From: a virus
DNA length: 64,000 nt
Virus record (IMG/VR): IMGVR_UViG_3300032242_001235
Coordinates: 1 to 64,000 of that record
Reading direction: 5' to 3' (one strand)
Made by a program: the position numbers and the translations under genes. The notes under the pieces are model-generated. The model ran no database searches and was not told where the DNA came from. It was given only the letters and a program-made list of their open reading frames with translations. Shown here piece after piece: positions 2,945 to 43,457 of this stretch; positions within the stretch are counted from its first letter, which is position 1, and the number at the start of each line of letters is the position of its first letter.

Positions 2945-5900
2945 ATGGCATCAAGGGTATCAGGATCAAATACAACACAACCCCAAAGTGGGCAGATAAG
3001 TCCTCCTTCTGCTCCTCCCGTATCTGGAATAGCGATAAATGTTGGTGGTTCCGTCATCAGCCAAAATGGAAGTGATGGCAGTGTTAAGATTTATACAACA
3101 TCCAGTATTGGATTGTTTGCGAGTACCGTTACGGTTACTTCAAATAAAATTATCATGTCCAGTGCTGCCAATGTGGGCAACGAGATTAATAACCCTGGTG
3201 GTTTAGGATACGACCCTGGTTCTGGATTAAATGCAGCAAACGGTTTTTATCTTGATGGATTTAATGGAACTACATTATATAGTACAAAAGCAGAACGCCA
3301 ATTAGCAGGCACTTACTTTACTGGTGGTGTTGGTATTGAACAAGATTTATCAGTTGGCGGTTTCATCTACGGTCGTATTTCAAAAGCCAGTACTGCAACA
3401 ACAAGTACCTTTATTACTGTTTCAACAACTAATAACACATCAACTTATTATCCTCTATTCACTGATGCAGCAGGTTTTGTTTCACCTGGTGCGACTTTGT
3501 ATGGTGATCTGATTGGTAATAAAGGCGGACTAACATATGTTCCAAGTTCTGGATTATTAGTATCTGATCGTGGTAGCATTGCAGCAAGTGATAATTCAAC
3601 TGGTAGCACAACTGGTGCATTTACAGTAACTGGTGGTGTGGGCATTGCTAAAGATGTTTGGATTGGCGGGGATGTTCAACCTGATGTTAATAATAAACAG
3701 AATATTGGTAGTGACGGACACGCCTGGGCAAATGCATACTTAGAAAAAGTTTACAGTAAATTTGTTGGAAATACTAACAGTAATATTACTATTAGTCCTA
3801 ATAACGGAATTACAAATCCACTTCGCGGCACTGGCGGTGTTATGGATGTCTATGGTGACATTCGTGTTCGCGGTGATAATCCAGTTGGAACTGCTCCTGT
3901 AGTTACTAACATTTTATATGTTACAACAGATGGTGATGATACAAATGATGGTCGTGCAATGGACGCAAGTCGTGCATGCCGTACTATCAGCGGTGCTATT
4001 AATAGTCCTTACTATCAGTCAGGTACACAAATTCGTGTAGCACCTGGTCTATACTTAGAAAATAATCCAATTCAATTGAAACCATATACAAGTATTATGG
4101 GTTCAGATTTGAGAACAACTAGTATTGAACCAATCAATAAAACACAAGATTTGTTCCATATGAATTCAGGATGCTACTTGGCATTCATGCAATTCTTAAA
4201 TGGACGAAGTGGTTTGCTGCCAGGTACATATGCAAACGGATACAATCGCGGAGCATATGCTACAGCATTTCCTCCGTTACCAGTTGGAGAACAAATCGAC
4301 TTGTTCCATTCGCCATACATTCAAAACTGTACTAACTTGACAGGTCCTTGGTTGAATGATGGTAAAATGTTTGTACCAGCTGAAGTTGTTCAAGTTCCAA
4401 TCATTACTGGTATGGGATCATGGGAAGCAAATACTACCACTATTGTAATTAATGTATTAAATGAACCAGTTAATGGATTCATCAATGCTGGTAAACCTAA
4501 TTCAAATGACACACAGTACACTGGTAATTTACAGAGTACTCTAAATATTATCACCACACAAACTGTAAAAACATCTAGTGCATTGAACACAATCACTAAT
4601 TTGACTTTACTAAATGCATACCAAATGCAAGATACTGGCGACCTGTGGGTGTACACTGGTGCTGATACTATAACATTAGGTATGAGCATAGATACCGGAC
4701 ATCAAAATTCAGGATTCTTTGACGCTCGTACTTTGATGCTAGCCAATCAGGCATTCCTACAATGGCAGGTCGTATCCTTTATTGATCAAACATTCAACCC
4801 AGGCACATTTACTTACAACACGGCAACTTGCTATAGAGATGTTGGACTAATTGTTGATGCAATTAGTATGGACATGTTATATGACAGCACAAGTGACAGT
4901 ACATTTGCTGGATTGCAATACTGGAGTCAAACTGCTAACGGATATACTGGAAATATTCCTGGAGAAATTACCGCAACAATTGCAGCTATTACTTTCTTAA
5001 AAGGCATAGCACAAGGGGTTGTCAGTACAGGAAATAGGCCAACTGTTAATACTTTGTTTAATACATTAACAAATATTTTATCTGCTGGAAATACTAACGG
5101 TGTTACGAATCTAATTAATTATGGAGGCCTTCCATCTACAAGTCCTACAACAATTTATGACTTCCAACAATTAACAGATCCTGTCAATGTAAAATCTATG
5201 CAGACACAGGTGTTTAATTACATCACAACTAATTATCCTACATTAGCATATACTAGTTCAACTTGTATGCGAGATGTTGGATACATTATTGACAGTGTGG
5301 CGTTTGACTTGTTACACGGTAGTAATGTTCAAACAATCAAGTCAGGAGTTTACTACTACGGTTATACTTCTAATCAAAGTGCAATTGCAAACGAGATACC
5401 ACAAACATCTGCGGCATATAGTTACATTCAAAGTATAATTCCTTACATCATTACTAACCAACCAGTACCAACTGTTTACAGCACTGGTACACAGGTGTTT
5501 AATAATTTACCTGCTACTGATGCAGAAATTAATACATTACAAAATAAGATCGATGTAATTACTAGAATTATTGTTGATGGACCAGCAGTTGCTGATGCAA
5601 AGACTCCTATTAATTTAAAAGAAAATACAACACCATCGGTACTGAATGCTTGGAATTTGTTACATGCAAATAGAACATTTATTCAGAAAGAAGTTGTTGC
5701 ATTTGTCAATAGTCAATTTAGTACATTTACATACAACAAACAATTATCATATAGAGATACTGGCATATTGATACAAAATGTCGCATACGATGCAACATTT
5801 GGTGGTAATAGTCAATCTGTTGAGGCTGGCTTGGCATATTGGAATGGTGTAATCAGTTATATTACAGGACAAATTCCACAATGTGTTGCGGCTGTTGAAT

Positions 5901-8900
5901 ACTTAAACAATTTAGTACAAGCTGTTATCAGAAATATACCATGCCCTGTACTACCACAAGTAGTTGGTATACCAGTAAACTATCAAGTGATTAATACTGT
6001 ATTAACTAACGGAGAAATTGCAAGTCAAAGTATTGATAATTTATTTGGAATTATAAAGAATGTAATGAAGGAAGGACCTAGTGTTGCACCTAGTGTGTAT
6101 TACAGCACTGGTCCAGATGCAGCATTTGTCAGTTCTGAAATATTGATGCATCTTAACAGACCATTTATTCAAGAGAATACTCTTAATTACATCAATTACA
6201 ATTTGTCTTATCCTAAGCCATCATTGCCGTTTAATAAAATTAAATGTGCAAGGGATACGGCAATTATCATTGACTCAATTGCTTCGGACCTATTATTCCC
6301 AACATCAAGTGTTAGTCAAACTACATTTGCAGGTTTACAATATTTTAATCAAGCTGGATACATTGGAAATATTGCAACAGAGATTACAACAACTACTGCT
6401 GCGATGGTGTATTTGAAAGAACTTGCTGCTAAAATTGTATCAAATACAACTTATGTTGACGATGCTCTAGTTGGTATTACTAGATATGCAAGTACAGCAA
6501 CTCAACGAACTCAGGTTACTAACATCAATCCTACAACATCTGATGTAGTATCTAAAATCAATAACGAGTTTGATATCATCATAAGTATTTTGAAAGGCAG
6601 TACTAAAGGTTGGACTGATAAAATTATTCCAAACGGCGGACGCCCAAGTAATTTGAAGAGTGTTCAAGATGCTTATGCATTGTTATTGGCTAACCTATCA
6701 TATATCCAAGCAGAAGTTTATGCATATGTAGTTTCTCCACAAGGATTAAATTATGCATCTACTAATTTTACTACTTCTACTTGTATTAGAGATGTGGGCT
6801 ATATCATTGATTCAGTAGCATTTGATGTATTGCATGGCGGTAATCGTCAAGCAATTCAAAGTGGACTATCTTACTATAGTCAGAATCCTTCTGATACATT
6901 AATACCAAATGAAACTACTGCAACTGCCGCAGCATTTTCTTTCTTAGGTACTTTAATGGGTCAGCTAATTACTGATCCTAACCCAGTTGTTATAACATAT
7001 CAATCTGATGTAAAACAAGTAGTTGGATTACCAGTTGCTACCAGTGCTGAATCAACACAGATTCAAACAGTTATTGTTTCAACATTAACTAACATTTTAA
7101 CATCTGGTCCTGTAGGTTACAATTACACTCCAATAAGTTTAACAACTTCATCTAATGCCAATGTATATCTTGCATATGACATTATTGAAGCTAACAAAGA
7201 ATTCTTAGTAGCAGAAACACTTGCATGGATTGATTATACATACAATACAGTGTCCTCATTCACTTATAATCAAACAAAGTGCTCTAGAGATACTGGACTA
7301 ATTGTTGATGCTATTGGTATGGACTTGTTGTATGGCAGTTCTAGCGATAGTACATTTGCTGGATTGCAATATTGGAATCAAGATATTGGTTACACTGGAA
7401 ATATTCCAGGAGAAATTACTGCTACTATTGCTGCATTTACATACCTAAAAGGTATTGCAGCATCATTTGTAAGTAGTGGTAATACATCTACTGTTACTTC
7501 ATTGTTCAACAATGTCATTAACATTTTGAACAATAGTCCAGTTGGTGTTACTGATACTATTGTATTTGGTGGATTGCCAAATAGCGGCAAAGTAGCTGAC
7601 TATAATGCATTGCAGGCAAATAAATTGTCAATGGAAAATAGTGTCATTGCATATTTGACAACTAACTTCCCATCATTGGCTTATGATCCTACAACTTGTA
7701 GACGAGATGTCGGGTATGTTATTGATGCAGTTAGCTTTGACTTATATCATGGTGGTAATATACAGTCCATTAAATCAGGCGTGTACTATTATGGATACGA
7801 CGGCAATTCTACAGCAATCAATAATGAAATTCCTGCTACTACAGCGGCATATAATTATATATCATCAATATTGCCATATATTGTAACAGGTCAGCCTGTC
7901 CTTAACCCATATCAATTAGGGGTACCACAATCAACTTCTGGAACTCCAGGAACTGCGGCTGAAGTTGATTTCTTAAAAAATAAGATTGATGTTATTACAA
8001 ATATTATCTTGAATGGTCCTGCTGCTGCTGAGTCAAAATCTCCACAGAGACTAATACCAAACAACGATCCATATGCAATTAATGCATGGACTTTGCTAAA
8101 TGCTAACCGTGCGTTTATACAAGCAGAAGTTATTGCGTATATTAATTCAACATCAATAAAACCTGCATTTGCTTATAACCAAGAAAAATGCTTCCGTGAT
8201 GTTGGTTTAATGGTTGATGCAGTAAGCCAAGATATTCTACTAGGTGGAAATCAACGCAGTATTGAGGCAGGACTAAGCTATTGGACTCAAGGATATAATT
8301 ATATTGCTAACCAAGTAAGCACTACTACTGCTGCTATAAAATATATTAGTGATATTTGTTTACAAATTATTGCAAATAAACCAGTTGATGTTGTAACTGG
8401 AACTGTTGCGAAACAAGTCATTAATCCTTTCTTCCAATACGGTGATGACTACATGCCTCAACAAGCTGTAGCCAGAAACTTTAATATAATTTCTGAAATC
8501 ATTAATCGTGGTCCACAAGCTGCTCCGCCATTATATGCTGGTGGAGGAATAATTGCATTGACTGGTCTTAACGGAGCTGATGTAAAATTAGCACCTACAG
8601 TAACATACATTTCTACAATATCAACAGGTACATACTTGATTGGTTTAAGTACTGCCACTGTTGGATTTGGTAATAACGCTACATTGTATTTTGGTGATGT
8701 GGAAGTATTCCCATTACAAGATGCTGAAGTTGAAACTATTGCATTAAGACAAACAGGCAGTTCATCCTCATGGGATCAAAGAAAAGTTGACGCCATTGGT
8801 GGTATGGGCGGAAGTTTAGTCGATGGTGCTGTTGTTAGTGCTAGAAGTCCAATTCAATCATTTGCTTATGATGCGTTCACACAATTAACACAGGGCGGTG

Positions 8901-10645
8901 TTGGTGTTAAAGTTACTAACAACGGATATGCACAGTTGGTATCGGTATTCACGATCTTCTGTTCAATCGCTGTTGAAGTTGACAATGGAGGTATTGCTTC
9001 TATTACTAACTCCAACTGTAACTTTGGTACATTAGGATTGGTAGCAAAGGGATACGGAAAACGAGCATTCTCTGGAACAATTTTTAATCCAAAGAATAGA
9101 GCATACCCATTTAGTCCAGATGTTCCAGGTTCACAAGGATTAGATCCTTACTATCCAGCAGGATATTTCCCTAGTAGTACTGGTGGAGTTGAAGTATTTG
9201 TTCCTGATTTAAACAACAGACCACACATTTCATTGGTAATGGAAATTGTCCCACCAGTAACATATTCTAACCCATTAAATTCTCCTGCATACGCTGCAAT
9301 TGGATTGACTTTACAAGGGTTCTTAGTTGCTAAACCTAGTATAGCTACATTGTCTGTTGGGGCAATTACAATTGAAAATATTGATAATACTGATGTTGCA
9401 ATTGGCCACACATTATATATTATTGATCAATTTGGATATCCATACGATAATTTCCAATACTTGCACGATGAATTTGGTAACTATGTTGACTCAAATAACA
9501 GAATAACCACTAACCCTGCAGATTATATAGTGAATCCAAATTATAAGATTTGGTATGCTGGTACTGGTACACAGGTTGTTGATATTGGATTTAATTCTGT
9601 TACTATCAACCAATCATTAGGCGCTGGCGGTGGATTTGCTGATGATCCAAACTACTTTAATTTGTATTTCTGTGGTAATTCTTACTACACAGTACAAACC
9701 AGTAGCATAGCAAACCAACCATATCAAACTGGTACTAATATATTATCTGCAAATACTAATCCATACTTCCAAGGACCAACACAAAGTCAAATTACACAAC
9801 ATGTGGACTCTATAAGTTACTTGGGATATATGGTAGATCAAATTATTAATAATCAAACATATATTGGACAATATTCCAGCCTATCAGCTGTAACAGTTCC
9901 TAATATTACTAGTGCAGTTGGATCTAAGGCATTTATTGATTTAAGATTTGGATATCTAACTTCTATTATTGGTTCTAGTAATATTAACATTGCTGAGTCA
10001 GTAGTACCTGCTAAGAAGATAACAACTTCAGGTACTGTTCCATCTGGAGCAGGTAGTGCGATTACATTAATAAGAGCTAACATTGAATTCCTATCATCTG
10101 AAATATATGCTTATGTACAATCAGCATATCCAACATTGTTAGACACTAGTTCTAAAACTGGCCAAGAAGCAAAATGTCGTCGAGATGTTGGATTAATTTT
10201 ACAGCAATTAATCTATGATTTAGAAACTGGCGGAAACTATAATATGGTACACGCTGGATTGAGCTATTGGAGTCGTCCAGGTTCATATCATATTGTTCAA
10301 TTGGGCGAAGCAGTTACTGATCCGTCAATATTCCCAGACGGTGCAATTGTTAACTTCTATCAAAGAAGTTATATTAGTGCATCTGGTTATTTGTTTGAAT
10401 ATGTTGGAGCAGGTGCAAACTATGGTGCATTACCACAATATGGTAAAGCAGATCCGCAGCAACAATATGAAGCAATACAATTGAACTATGGTAAAGTATT
10501 TTATACTAGTACTGACCAAAACGGAGACTTTAGAATTGGTCCTGGATTGGTAATTAGTCAGGCAACTGGCGTTATTGCAGGAAGAACATTTACACAATCA
10601 TTGTTTGCTAACATGACCCCATTCATCTTGGCAATCCAACTATAA
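2945..10645 (+). CDS. Giant virion protein, beta-helix plus nine CxRDxG repeats
   Basis: Encodes 2566 residues. Residues 1-270 resemble fibre sequence, including a TGAFTVTGGVGIAKDVWIGG unit. About 325-480 (YVTTDGDDTNDGRAMDASRA ... IRVAPGLYLENNPIQL) resembles a right-handed beta-helix of the pectate-lyase or DUF1565 type. From about 629 to 2410 a signature, roughly CxRDxGxIxDxxxxDxxxGG followed by an AGLxYW motif, recurs nine times. The first eight are spaced about 140-180 residues apart, and each lies in an alpha-helical module. I recall similar repeats in large cyanophage structural proteins. The C-terminus carries VFYTSTDQNGDFRIGPGL, common at the ends of such proteins. It is the longest but one gene in the window and heads the fibre block. 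Likely a long fibre or baseplate-associated adhesin; the exact role is unknown. Confidence 0.8.
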   Translation: MASRVSGSNTTQPQSGQISPPSAPPVSGIAINVGGSVISQNGSDGSVKIYTTSSIGLFASTVTVTSNKIIMSSAANVGNEINNPGGLGYDPGSGLNAANGFYLDGFNGTTLYSTKAERQLAGTYFTGGVGIEQDLSVGGFIYGRISKASTATTSTFITVSTTNNTSTYYPLFTDAAGFVSPGATLYGDLIGNKGGLTYVPSSGLLVSDRGSIAASDNSTGSTTGAFTVTGGVGIAKDVWIGGDVQPDVNNKQNIGSDGHAWANAYLEKVYSKFVGNTNSNITISPNNGITNPLRGTGGVMDVYGDIRVRGDNPVGTAPVVTNILYVTTDGDDTNDGRAMDASRACRTISGAINSPYYQSGTQIRVAPGLYLENNPIQLKPYTSIMGSDLRTTSIEPINKTQDLFHMNSGCYLAFMQFLNGRSGLLPGTYANGYNRGAYATAFPPLPVGEQIDLFHSPYIQNCTNLTGPWLNDGKMFVPAEVVQVPIITGMGSWEANTTTIVINVLNEPVNGFINAGKPNSNDTQYTGNLQSTLNIITTQTVKTSSALNTITNLTLLNAYQMQDTGDLWVYTGADTITLGMSIDTGHQNSGFFDARTLMLANQAFLQWQVVSFIDQTFNPGTFTYNTATCYRDVGLIVDAISMDMLYDSTSDSTFAGLQYWSQTANGYTGNIPGEITATIAAITFLKGIAQGVVSTGNRPTVNTLFNTLTNILSAGNTNGVTNLINYGGLPSTSPTTIYDFQQLTDPVNVKSMQTQVFNYITTNYPTLAYTSSTCMRDVGYIIDSVAFDLLHGSNVQTIKSGVYYYGYTSNQSAIANEIPQTSAAYSYIQSIIPYIITNQPVPTVYSTGTQVFNNLPATDAEINTLQNKIDVITRIIVDGPAVADAKTPINLKENTTPSVLNAWNLLHANRTFIQKEVVAFVNSQFSTFTYNKQLSYRDTGILIQNVAYDATFGGNSQSVEAGLAYWNGVISYITGQIPQCVAAVEYLNNLVQAVIRNIPCPVLPQVVGIPVNYQVINTVLTNGEIASQSIDNLFGIIKNVMKEGPSVAPSVYYSTGPDAAFVSSEILMHLNRPFIQENTLNYINYNLSYPKPSLPFNKIKCARDTAIIIDSIASDLLFPTSSVSQTTFAGLQYFNQAGYIGNIATEITTTTAAMVYLKELAAKIVSNTTYVDDALVGITRYASTATQRTQVTNINPTTSDVVSKINNEFDIIISILKGSTKGWTDKIIPNGGRPSNLKSVQDAYALLLANLSYIQAEVYAYVVSPQGLNYASTNFTTSTCIRDVGYIIDSVAFDVLHGGNRQAIQSGLSYYSQNPSDTLIPNETTATAAAFSFLGTLMGQLITDPNPVVITYQSDVKQVVGLPVATSAESTQIQTVIVSTLTNILTSGPVGYNYTPISLTTSSNANVYLAYDIIEANKEFLVAETLAWIDYTYNTVSSFTYNQTKCSRDTGLIVDAIGMDLLYGSSSDSTFAGLQYWNQDIGYTGNIPGEITATIAAFTYLKGIAASFVSSGNTSTVTSLFNNVINILNNSPVGVTDTIVFGGLPNSGKVADYNALQANKLSMENSVIAYLTTNFPSLAYDPTTCRRDVGYVIDAVSFDLYHGGNIQSIKSGVYYYGYDGNSTAINNEIPATTAAYNYISSILPYIVTGQPVLNPYQLGVPQSTSGTPGTAAEVDFLKNKIDVITNIILNGPAAAESKSPQRLIPNNDPYAINAWTLLNANRAFIQAEVIAYINSTSIKPAFAYNQEKCFRDVGLMVDAVSQDILLGGNQRSIEAGLSYWTQGYNYIANQVSTTTAAIKYISDICLQIIANKPVDVVTGTVAKQVINPFFQYGDDYMPQQAVARNFNIISEIINRGPQAAPPLYAGGGIIALTGLNGADVKLAPTVTYISTISTGTYLIGLSTATVGFGNNATLYFGDVEVFPLQDAEVETIALRQTGSSSSWDQRKVDAIGGMGGSLVDGAVVSARSPIQSFAYDAFTQLTQGGVGVKVTNNGYAQLVSVFTIFCSIAVEVDNGGIASITNSNCNFGTLGLVAKGYGKRAFSGTIFNPKNRAYPFSPDVPGSQGLDPYYPAGYFPSSTGGVEVFVPDLNNRPHISLVMEIVPPVTYSNPLNSPAYAAIGLTLQGFLVAKPSIATLSVGAITIENIDNTDVAIGHTLYIIDQFGYPYDNFQYLHDEFGNYVDSNNRITTNPADYIVNPNYKIWYAGTGTQVVDIGFNSVTINQSLGAGGGFADDPNYFNLYFCGNSYYTVQTSSIANQPYQTGTNILSANTNPYFQGPTQSQITQHVDSISYLGYMVDQIINNQTYIGQYSSLSAVTVPNITSAVGSKAFIDLRFGYLTSIIGSSNINIAESVVPAKKITTSGTVPSGAGSAITLIRANIEFLSSEIYAYVQSAYPTLLDTSSKTGQEAKCRRDVGLILQQLIYDLETGGNYNMVHAGLSYWSRPGSYHIVQLGEAVTDPSIFPDGAIVNFYQRSYISASGYLFEYVGAGANYGALPQYGKADPQQQYEAIQLNYGKVFYTSTDQNGDFRIGPGLVISQATGVIAGRTFTQSLFANMTPFILAIQL

Positions 10646-11053: not shown

Positions 11054-13042
11054 ATGCCATCATTACTAAGCGGATCGTCACAAAATGCTAGCTCGCCTTC
11101 TGGCTATGCAGCACCTGGGCAACTACAGTTTGCTCTAGGTCCCACACCTACGACAAGTACAGGTTATACATTAGTTTCAACTACTGGGTCAATTCTTCAT
11201 TATACAAGTAGTTTAGGAAATTTAAATTTCAACTTTGGTGTAATTACAAGCAATATTGCCAATCAAAACATTCAATTGATTGGTACTGGCTCTAACTCTG
11301 TAATAGTTTCTGGCGGAACTGCAAATGTAAGTACCACTACTGGTGCTTTAATTGTACAAGGTGGCATAGGCGTTCAAGGAAGCATTTGGACTGGACAAGA
11401 TATTAATGTCAACGGCATTACTTTTGGTCAAGGATACCGAGGCAAAAACAATATTAAAATTTCTGGTGTTGAAGAACTTGGCGGAAATCCGACAAACAGC
11501 TTTAACAGTATTGCCATTGGAAATAGTGCATTAACTGGATTGGCAACAGCACAGCGTACAATTGCAGTTGGTACACATGCATTAAGTTCAGGAACAGATC
11601 TAGTAAACAACATTGCTATTGGTGACTATAGTTTACCACTTATTGGATATAAGAAAATAGCATTTGTTGGTACAATGACCAATGCTACAAAAACAAAGCC
11701 AGTACAAATTGTAATTCCTAACCATAATCAAACTACAGGAACACAGATTTTTATTACTGATGTTAACGGAATGATTGAATTAGATAGCAACTACTATTAT
11801 GTAGATGTTATTAGTTCTAGTACATTGGCACTTTACAGTGACTTAAACTTAAACTTCCCTGTAAACGGTATACTATATTCCACATATATAAGCAGCGGTA
11901 CAGTAGTTCGTCCATTAGCCAGTGCTAATAATATTGCATTAGGTACCGGTGCAGCACAAGCATTTATGGACGGTAAAGAGAATTTCTTTATTGGTCATAA
12001 TATTGCCACTAGTTTCAATACAGGCAGTTATAATTTCTTTATTGGTCACGATGTAGCAAACAACATGACTAATGGTAATAGAAATATTTCCATTGGCGGT
12101 AATCAATTACAAGACGGCTACGACGATCAAATTAATATTGGTAATGTATTTTATTACAATGGTGGGGGATATCTAACATTAAATGCCGATGTAGGTGTTG
12201 GTATAGGAACTGATTCATCAAGTGTTGATACTGGTGCATTTAATGTATTTGGTGGTGCTGGCATAAGTGGAAACTTATTTGTAGGTGACAAATTAAATGT
12301 TACTGGTAACGGTGATGTCACTTTAAGTCCACAAGGTGCAAGTGTTATTATCCAACCATCTCTAGGCGGTTCAGTAACACTGTTCCCACAACAACCTGCT
12401 CCTGGAAATATGGACAATATGTATATTGGCCAAACACTTTCTCGTGATGCTAATTTTCAAATTGTCAAAGTAAAGGCAACAAATGCTGCAACTAGTGACC
12501 TAACCGGTGCATTACAAGTTGCTGGTGGTGTAGGTATTGTTGGCGACTTATGGGTTGGTGGAGTTATTCACGGATCTGTTGCTGGTGGCGGTGGTGGCGC
12601 TGGTACTGGCGGCGCAGCATTAACTACAGAAGAAATTCAGATCAATTCTACAATGAGTAATACACTGTATTACTTGACAATGTCTTCTGCGACTTATAGC
12701 TATTCTACATTGGAAGTAACAACTAATCTTGTATATGATACAACAGGTGGAATGTTGTCATTGCAACAAATGACATTAGTAGGAACAAGTCCAAGTGTTA
12801 GCACACAAACAGGTGCATTAACTGTTGCAGGTGGTGTGGGTGTACAAGGTAGCATTTATAGTGCAGACGGTAATGCAGATCAAGGATATCTATTGTATAC
12901 ACCTAGAACTACACTGTCTGTAGGAATCCCACCAGCAAATCCGAGATTTGGTGATTTCTGGGTCGACCCTAGTTTAGGTGCAAGTTTCCAATATATAAAA
13001 GATGGTACTAGTACTATTTGGCTGCAATTTACATCAGTATAA
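11054..13042 (+). CDS. Fibre-type protein with YadA-head-like repeats
   Basis: Encodes 662 residues. Four TGALxVxGGxGxxGxxxxG units occur (about residues 97, 396, 480 and 577). About residues 145-370 hold left-handed-helix-like repeats of the trimeric autotransporter head type: IAIGNSAL, IAVGTHALSS, IAIGDYSL, IALGTGAAQA, FFIGHNIATS, FFIGHDVANN, ISIGGNQLQD, INIGNVFYY. In YadA-type adhesins such repeats form a trimeric beta-roll that binds surfaces. The C-terminus contains GDFWVDPSLG ... IWLQF, a short tryptophan module also seen in the sheath and neck proteins. Probably a trimeric tail fibre. The start follows an AGGA site 13 bases after the preceding gene. Confidence 0.72.
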   Translation: MPSLLSGSSQNASSPSGYAAPGQLQFALGPTPTTSTGYTLVSTTGSILHYTSSLGNLNFNFGVITSNIANQNIQLIGTGSNSVIVSGGTANVSTTTGALIVQGGIGVQGSIWTGQDINVNGITFGQGYRGKNNIKISGVEELGGNPTNSFNSIAIGNSALTGLATAQRTIAVGTHALSSGTDLVNNIAIGDYSLPLIGYKKIAFVGTMTNATKTKPVQIVIPNHNQTTGTQIFITDVNGMIELDSNYYYVDVISSSTLALYSDLNLNFPVNGILYSTYISSGTVVRPLASANNIALGTGAAQAFMDGKENFFIGHNIATSFNTGSYNFFIGHDVANNMTNGNRNISIGGNQLQDGYDDQINIGNVFYYNGGGYLTLNADVGVGIGTDSSSVDTGAFNVFGGAGISGNLFVGDKLNVTGNGDVTLSPQGASVIIQPSLGGSVTLFPQQPAPGNMDNMYIGQTLSRDANFQIVKVKATNAATSDLTGALQVAGGVGIVGDLWVGGVIHGSVAGGGGGAGTGGAALTTEEIQINSTMSNTLYYLTMSSATYSYSTLEVTTNLVYDTTGGMLSLQQMTLVGTSPSVSTQTGALTVAGGVGVQGSIYSADGNADQGYLLYTPRTTLSVGIPPANPRFGDFWVDPSLGASFQYIKDGTSTIWLQFTSV

Positions 13043-42875: not shown

Positions 42876-43457
42876 ATGAATTATAAAGTTGAAAGTTGGT
42901 TTCCAAGACCTATATACTATGCAGATGATATTTGCCAAGAGCATTTGGGTGATTTTGAGATTGCTGTAAAAGACGCAATTAAAGATGAAGGCACAAAAAG
43001 AAATCCATTTCTAGGTGTGAATAGTTCACATAAGACTGTGTCTGAACTTCATAAACTACCTGCACTGGCTCCTTTAGCTTCTAGTATATTGGACCATGCT
43101 ATGAATTTCTGTTTAATAATAGGGTATGATCCAGAGACCGCATTTTCATTCAACATAATAAACATGTGGGTTAATATTAGTGATCAACACGATTACAATT
43201 TCCCACATACCCACCCTGGATCTGTAATTTCAGGTGCGTTTTATATTAAGGCAACACCTGAAAATATAATTACTTTTTATGATAAATATGAAACACTAAC
43301 ATTACCTCTTGGCCAAGATACAATGTATTCGATGTCGCACACATCATATGATTGTTTACCTGGTCGGCTGTTATTGTTTAAAAGTGATTTTGTTCACGGG
43401 AATGTTCCGCAAAAACTTCCTGGAGAAAAAATAGTAATAAGTTTTAATATAGGTTAA
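42876..43457 (+). CDS. 2OG-Fe(II) oxygenase, TIGR02466-like
   Basis: Encodes 193 residues, starting two bases after the preceding stop. The pattern NFPHTHPGSVISGAFYIK (H111, H113) and LLLFKSDFVHGNVPQKLPGE (H174), followed by KIVISFN, matches the putative 2OG-Fe(II) oxygenase family often found in aquatic phages next to tail genes. K185 occupies the place where many members have arginine for 2-oxoglutarate. The N-terminal WFPRPIYYADD is also typical. The family's substrate is not known to me. Translation is probably coupled to the glycine-rich adhesin gene, which hints at a role in fibre modification or tail assembly. Confidence 0.75.
   Translation: MNYKVESWFPRPIYYADDICQEHLGDFEIAVKDAIKDEGTKRNPFLGVNSSHKTVSELHKLPALAPLASSILDHAMNFCLIIGYDPETAFSFNIINMWVNISDQHDYNFPHTHPGSVISGAFYIKATPENIITFYDKYETLTLPLGQDTMYSMSHTSYDCLPGRLLLFKSDFVHGNVPQKLPGEKIVISFNIG

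Follow-up and report, generated by a model that had tools for sequence, protein, structure and literature searches.

Light-harvesting phycobiliproteins form alpha-beta heterodimers in trimeric discs, and their N-terminal X-Y helical hairpin serves disc assembly. In phycocyanin, Asp and Arg hold the pyrrole nitrogens and a propionate of the chromophore. The bilin-binding globin family also comprises the bilin biosynthesis-associated globins (BBAGs), which are cellular, encoded beside bilin genes and termed self-assembling biliproteins (Rockwell 2023, PMC10151467). The chromophore motif CXRD is found in many family members. BBAG-1 and BBAG-3 have it according to the same source.

Cyanophages carry genes for making and attaching bilins even when they infect Prochlorococcus, which is without phycobilisomes (PMC3037559, PMC2984593). 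The benefit of the phage bilin enzymes has been termed a mystery, unresolved or unclear (PMC3037559, PMC11480375, PMC2984593). For phage CpeT, a review assigns the role of raising host phycoerythrin (PMC2984593), and for phage cassettes of heme oxygenase and PcyA/X, binding to a BBAG-type globin is raised as one possibility in a passage that names no phage acceptor (PMC11480375).

The viral locus described here encodes modules that share with phycobiliproteins (phycocyanin, phycoerythrin; PF00502) sequence similarity over helices B-E (to helix G in some beta subunits), the CXRD Cys in register and, as predicted for a single module, a globin-like helical fold. They differ from phycobiliproteins in that they stand in tandem (nine here) inside a fibre protein, that their models are without the X-Y hairpin and that they have additional residues, N, D, GGN and Y, which hardly vary. 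Set by description beside the BBAGs, which are bilin-binding phycobiliprotein relatives outside light harvesting, the modules differ in being virion fibre parts (PMC10151467). The phage proteins CpeT, PebS, PcyX and PcyA are bilin enzymes, while the modules, whose genomes frequently encode such enzymes as well, are candidates for an acceptor.

Results

Nine signature modules in a protein of 2566 residues

The window, i.e. the whole stretch of 64,000 nucleotides that was analysed (positions 1 to 64,000 of IMG/VR record IMGVR_UViG_3300032242_001235), contains the following features.

2945..10645, + strand: tail-fibre-like virion protein with modules, 2566 aa (PHROGs phrog_4527, phrog_5342)
4829..4936, + strand: core of module 1, starting at the motif Cys (Cys629) and reaching past the GLxYW segment
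5264..5371, + strand: module 2 core, Cys774
5747..5854, + strand: module 3 core, Ser935 replacing Cys
6245..6352, + strand: module 4 core, Cys1101
6782..6889, + strand: module 5 core, Cys1280; residues 1258-1310 give the best single match to Pfam Phycobilisome
7280..7387, + strand: module 6 core, Cys1446
7697..7804, + strand: module 7 core, Cys1585
8009..8521, + strand: module 8, full modelled stretch, 171 aa, Cys1749; phycobiliprotein-like fold predicted by AlphaFold2
10175..10282, + strand: module 9 core, Cys2411, incomplete, 662 residues beyond module 8

A first-pass annotation had noticed nine copies of a near-constant signature in this protein, and this count was confirmed: the pattern [C/S]xRDx[G/A] occurs nine times, as compared to a mean of 0.033 and a maximum of 2 in 2000 shuffles of the protein. 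The dipeptide RD, claimed to be invariant, is likewise present nine times and always within a signature copy. With the signature Arg at positions 631, 776, 937, 1103, 1282, 1448, 1587, 1751 and 2413, the distances from Arg to Arg are 145, 161, 166, 179, 166, 139 and 164 residues, followed by 662 residues before the last copy, in agreement with the proposed regular spacing that breaks only at the end. Cys is found in eight of the nine copies (Ser in copy 3), and the oddness of regular cysteines in a virion protein had rightly been flagged. A Gly two positions past the Asp of RD is present in 8/9 copies, with Ala in copy 4. The two remaining elements, GGN and AGLxYW, are each exact in five of the nine copies. 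Alignment of all nine modules, which had been suggested as a check, left six fully invariant columns, i.e. N22, R52, D53, D64, G77 and Y80 in the numbering of copy 8.

Because copies 1/6, 2/7 and 3/8 pair by identity (57%, 58% and 38%, respectively), modules 1-2-3 and 6-7-8 probably represent a duplicated triad, with the pair 4-5 in between. Copy 9 is incomplete in that the region past its F helix aligns poorly with the other copies.

The modules reside in a tail fibre protein

In comparisons with PHROGs, the 2566-residue protein matched the short tail fiber family phrog_4527 (7.5e-85) and the tail fiber family phrog_5342 (1.2e-82), and tail sheath and tail tube families are also present within the window. 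Both the similarity to fibre families and the surrounding tail gene cluster thus assign the protein to the tail or baseplate fibres. The adjoining ORF (11054-13042, 662 aa) shows a weak match to a tail-spike family (phrog_4636, 6.9e-05).

The same modules occur in giant proteins of cyanomyoviruses that are annotated as 'short tail fiber', 'structural protein' or 'gp7 baseplate wedge initiator' (S-PM2p218, PHM2_086, SSZBM1_208). The product names and notes in the annotated cyanomyovirus records examined for these giants do not mention a phycobiliprotein domain. One of the giants, S-SZBM1_208, comprises 6619 aa, is annotated as baseplate wedge initiator and carries six modules. The published table of structural proteins of S-SZBM1 lists it with 71 in what is apparently the peptide column and with 13.5% coverage (PMC9146016). 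Thus, in at least one phage the virion includes a protein with these modules. The earlier description of helical repeats within a virion protein was correct.

The record of S-PM2 (L332, AJ630128.1, 5473-10300) places 16 tRNA annotations within the coding sequence of S-PM2p218. In several relatives of S-PM2 tRNAs lie upstream of the module gene, and the case of S-PM2 is either a coordinate fault or a real oddity.

Sequence kinship with phycobiliproteins

When the whole 2566-residue protein was searched against Pfam, PF00502 (Phycobilisome) was the sole family above its cut-off (7.3e-12, 46 bits, cut-off 22.2), two other families remaining below theirs, and its best stretch surrounds the motif Cys. 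In the window's record, single modules gave PF00502 matches at two places, both below the cut-off (16 and 15.8 bits). In larger sets of modules scanned singly, PF00502 was matched by 16/83 modules and by 18/37 cyanophage modules at E<=0.1, and every other Pfam family by at most one module.

A phmmer search of the PDB with the 2566-residue protein returned 11 sequences, all of them phycocyanin or phycoerythrocyanin chains, with weak scores (best 0.034). A profile built from 83 modules listed 16 PDB sequences, 14 of which are phycocyanin chains (best 0.0017). The profile of the 37 cyanophage modules obtained 158 PDB matches with a best value of 7.3e-8, and among the 60 matches listed 58 are named as phycobiliproteins and two as 'bacterial fluorescent protein'. 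The strongest part of the profile match covers helices B and E, and with some beta subunits the alignment reaches helix G, e.g. profile positions 3-113 align with residues 33-146 of chain 7t7u_B. In these alignments the module Cys coincides with the Cys of C-x-R-D in phycocyanin alpha, and eight of the nine window modules have Cys, Arg and Asp of CXRD in register. As single modules match weakly, the kinship rests on the profiles and on the whole protein. Taking sequences and models together, the nine modules, which stand in tandem, are almost certainly members of the bilin-binding globin family, to which phycobiliproteins and BBAGs belong. The first-pass annotation, which had recognised helical repeats, their cysteines and a shared function, had missed both this family and the position of C, R and D at the bilin site.

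Predicted fold of the modules

AlphaFold2, employed without templates, modelled module 8 with a pLDDT of 87.6 and a pTM of 0.82, and the model has the globin-like A-B-E-F-G-H helical fold. Foldseek gave 343 matches for this model at E<=10, none at 0.001 and the best at 4.5e-3. VIA-align gave a best Z of 16.7 (145 aligned residues, rmsd 3.5) and, for chain 7lj0_B, a Z of 16.2 (134 aligned residues, rmsd 2.3). Among the 50 matches listed in each search (of the 343 in Foldseek), all but one, a 'bacterial fluorescent protein', are entries for phycobiliproteins or phycobilisomes. In a library of viral structures 206 matches were obtained, 21 of them at E<=0.001, and the named ones among these 21 are proteins of uncultured Caudovirales and of Synechococcus phages.

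The model of modules 7 and 8 as a pair has a pTM of 0.59 with low confidence in the arrangement between the modules. Foldseek found 38 matches at E<=10; the best had an E-value of 2.4, and a phycobiliprotein appeared at rank 29. VIA-align headed its list with seven phycobiliprotein rows (Z 5.4-6.0), all of them lying within residues 12-93, and other helical proteins came after them. In the pair, similarity to phycobiliproteins is thus confined to helices B-E-F, the core of module 7 (Z 6.0). A common predicted fold, by which the earlier module assignment was to be judged, thus stood as far as both modules show the same helix series, and fell short in that the phycobiliprotein match of the pair is limited to B-E-F of module 7. 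The reason is either cross-packing of adjacent modules in this model or a poor quality of the model. If helices G and H pack between modules, as is possible, the closed model of the single module may differ from the state within the fibre.

The X-Y hairpin was not seen in either model: the single-module model has no helix of at least 4 residues before residue 21, and the pair model has none at residues 167-184, the stretch that precedes module 8. Therefore, we do not class the modules as light-harvesting phycobiliproteins.

Conservation of the putative attachment site

From 1598 domain hits in 183 ORFs of IMG/VR, 1142 unique modules were collected. In about 1139 of these, Cys is conserved in 96%, Arg in 98% and Asp in 98%. 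The later Asp and a Tyr are present in essentially all modules, and the Asn of helix B in 93%. The motif column holds 1098 of the 1316 Cys residues in the 1142 modules. Among cyanophage modules, Cys is present in 107/111 and Asp in 113/114, while Arg is found in 84/112 and replaced in the other 28, by Asp in 19 cases. All 37 modules of the aligned cyanophage set have Cys and Asp, and 35 read C-x-R-D. The Cys-keeping modules of this set include four from two phages of Prochlorococcus MED4 and two from P-TIM40, a phage of Prochlorococcus NATL2A.

Over about 1250 modules, the usually lone Cys is nearly always retained. Exactly one Cys is present in 939 of the 1142 IMG/VR modules and in 57 of 86 cyanophage modules, with two in a further 25 of the latter. 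A disulfide or a Cys-metal site was rejected as main explanation on the basis of these lone cysteines, while Cys bonds between modules or chains are still conceivable. The equally conserved N, D, GGN and Y lie beyond what a bilin site explains. That the conservation of RD-G and D suggests one shared function per module, as had been put forward from the sequence, is an interpretation with which we agree.

Distribution of the modules and relatives of the window virus

Three module types were compared with 50,697 phage records and matched 136, 138 and 281 records, respectively, which by name all belong to Synechococcus, Prochlorococcus, cyanophages or one marine virus. The RecA/UvsX protein of the window virus, searched against the same records, gave 2179 matches, many from other hosts. 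The best 15 of these 2179 are jumbo phages of Proteobacteria with 58-68% identity. Accordingly, the host of the window virus need not be a cyanobacterium. Hosts from the Proteobacteria are not expected to supply phycobilins. The RecA/UvsX gene is located at L165:184-1239 of the window's record, and the hosts of the best 15 phages are Sinorhizobium, Xanthomonas, Pectobacterium, Vibrio, Cronobacter, Agrobacterium, Erwinia and Salmonella.

In a search of whole records, modules were detected in all 29 cyanophage records, of which 15 had been picked by a module or whole-protein match and are thus uninformative on frequency, and 14 by CpeT. The Sinorhizobium jumbo phage Phosso, which served as control in this search, had no modules (0/1). 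The largest array comprises at least 22 domain hits in one ORF that runs off the end of its locus. Two scans of bacterial and archaeal genomes with type-specific patterns gave 60 and 24 pattern matches, none of which was confirmed as a relative, although other queries may still reveal some. The psbA gene, a sign of a cyanobacterial host, was present in none of 47 module-bearing contigs.

Bilin genes in the vicinity of the modules

CpeT is a T-type bilin lyase. In 12 of 14 CpeT-centred cyanophage regions, modules follow downstream on the same strand, the first one 0.5-4.2 kb after CpeT. The two others, from S-SCSM2R and P-HM1, have no modules in this region and carry them elsewhere in the record. 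The same order of CpeT and modules is found in S-PM2, S-RIM32, S-CAM1, S-RSM4, S-WAM2, S-H9-1 and Sf-FR1, all seven picked through module or whole-protein matches, and is absent from P-HM2 and MED4-213 among the matches listed. As these phages are akin to each other, the synteny with CpeT reflects retention rather than 12 independent events.

In Sf-CH3 the gene order is CpeT, 2OG-Fe(II) oxygenase, PcyA, module protein, with the last two 37 bases apart and the bilin reductase PcyA scoring 168.9 bits. Bilin reductase was detected in 6 of the 30 phage records searched. In several cyanophages a 2OG-Fe(II) oxygenase gene sits between CpeT and the module gene. A 2OG-Fe(II) oxygenase (phrog_81, 3.6e-29) is also encoded at 42876-43457 of the window.

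Among metagenomic contigs with modules, which may be fragments, bilin reductase was found in 6/50, and the same six, out of 47, have heme oxygenase and bilin reductase adjacent to each other. Conversely, contigs chosen for bilin reductase carry modules in 7/29 cases (10/32 counting three known carriers initially left out), as compared to 3/7 control contigs chosen by RecA. These numbers do not show an association of bilin reductase and modules in metagenomic contigs. CpeT was not matched in any of 47 module-bearing contigs, which may be fragments, nor CpeS in any of 48 including the window's record. In the window's own record, possibly a fragment at 89,959 bases, neither CpeT nor CpeS nor a bilin reductase was matched.

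In the neighbourhoods L159, L160, L162, L163 and L164 ORFs for heme oxygenase and bilin reductase recur together with Hsp20-like and ClpS-like ORFs, the latter two assigned by eye, and a DnaK-like ORF (by eye) is present in two of them. Soon after the heme oxygenase-bilin reductase pair of two virus contigs with modules, ORFs resembling a CsgG-like lipoprotein and curlin repeats were noticed by eye at L163:7212-8883 and L164:6246-8087.

Discussion

A proposed bilin acceptor in phage fibres

We propose that the fibre modules, as members of the bilin-binding globin family, bind bilin covalently in at least some of these phages, a reading whose chromophore part is inferred and for which we consider the chances even. 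In this model, eight of the nine window modules would bind an open-chain tetrapyrrole via a thioether to the motif Cys, with Asp and Arg contacting the chromophore in the manner outlined above for phycocyanin. The pigment would be supplied by a bilin-making host or, in some phages, by a phage heme oxygenase together with a bilin reductase. In many cyanophages attachment may be aided by phage CpeT, acting as fibre lyase, and the finished virion would bear rows of bilins along its fibres. The use of the pigment is the least certain step: our guess, the simplest one, is that it serves adsorption as a light-dependent switch or quencher, since several marine cyanomyoviruses adsorb in a light-dependent manner according to a review citing a thesis (PMC2984593).

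The alternative that survives best is that the modules descend from a phycobiliprotein-like ancestor and now serve as colourless fibre bricks or receptor-binding spacers, in which packing or assembly accounts for the retention of C, R and D. This is quite possible, if short of probable. It agrees with the lack of bilin genes in most module-bearing contigs, with the apparent relatedness of the window virus to phages of Proteobacteria, with the conserved N, D, GGN and Y, which imply constraints beyond a bilin site, and with the cyanophage modules that persist while their Arg changes. However, a lone Cys without function should drift to Ala, Ser or Val, yet it is kept in 1098/1142 modules and in 107/111 cyanophage modules. 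In addition, the confinement to cyanophage-type records among the 50,697 and the synteny with a bilin lyase would be reduced to coincidences of inheritance. Overall, a colourless structural role of the fold comes close to bilin binding in likelihood, above all for the window virus, as its host may not make phycobilins.

It appears improbable that the same site serves another ligand or partner in a recognition role, be it a non-covalently held tetrapyrrole such as biliverdin or heme or, by mimicking contacts within phycobilisomes, the phycobiliproteins of the host. The near-invariant Cys fits poorly with non-covalent binding, and phycobilisomes are intracellular and hence are not surface receptors. 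What speaks for this explanation is that family members differ in their bilin, BBAG-2 binding biliverdin without CXRD (PMC10151467), and that modules with Cys are kept in phages of Prochlorococcus, a host lacking phycobilisomes (PMC2984593). Finally, convergence, i.e. an unrelated helical repeat that shares CxRD by chance, is very improbable: single-module Foldseek E-values that miss 0.001, a sequence match peaking at helices B and E and a two-module model that matches B-E-F only would agree with it, but the whole-PDB profile search puts phycobiliproteins first (7.3e-8), the alignment runs through helix G for some beta subunits (7t7u_B) and the structural match attains a Z of 16.7 over 145 residues.

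Implications for cyanophage biology

Among the titles and openings of abstracts found in an open-access library, none concerned phycobiliprotein-like domains in phage fibres. Even if the modules are colourless, they would represent a fold of the photosynthetic antenna that has been reused as a repeated viral fibre brick, for which no earlier description was found in this library. The modules provide a phage-encoded candidate for the bilin acceptor, with a conserved attachment Cys and, in many cyanophages, a lyase gene nearby. They are also a molecular candidate for the light-dependent adsorption of cyanomyoviruses, as described in the review cited above (PMC2984593). Both the acceptor and the adsorption question are open to testing with cultured S-PM2 and Synechococcus WH7803.

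More tentatively, the virions themselves could be chromoproteins, with phage heme oxygenase, PebS/PcyX/PcyA and CpeT serving in part to pigment the particle and with adsorption or host recognition responding to light. It is possible, though doubtful, that the bilin genes of phages thereby serve the particle at least partly, rather than the antenna of the host. Some virus particles may thus carry a bile pigment.
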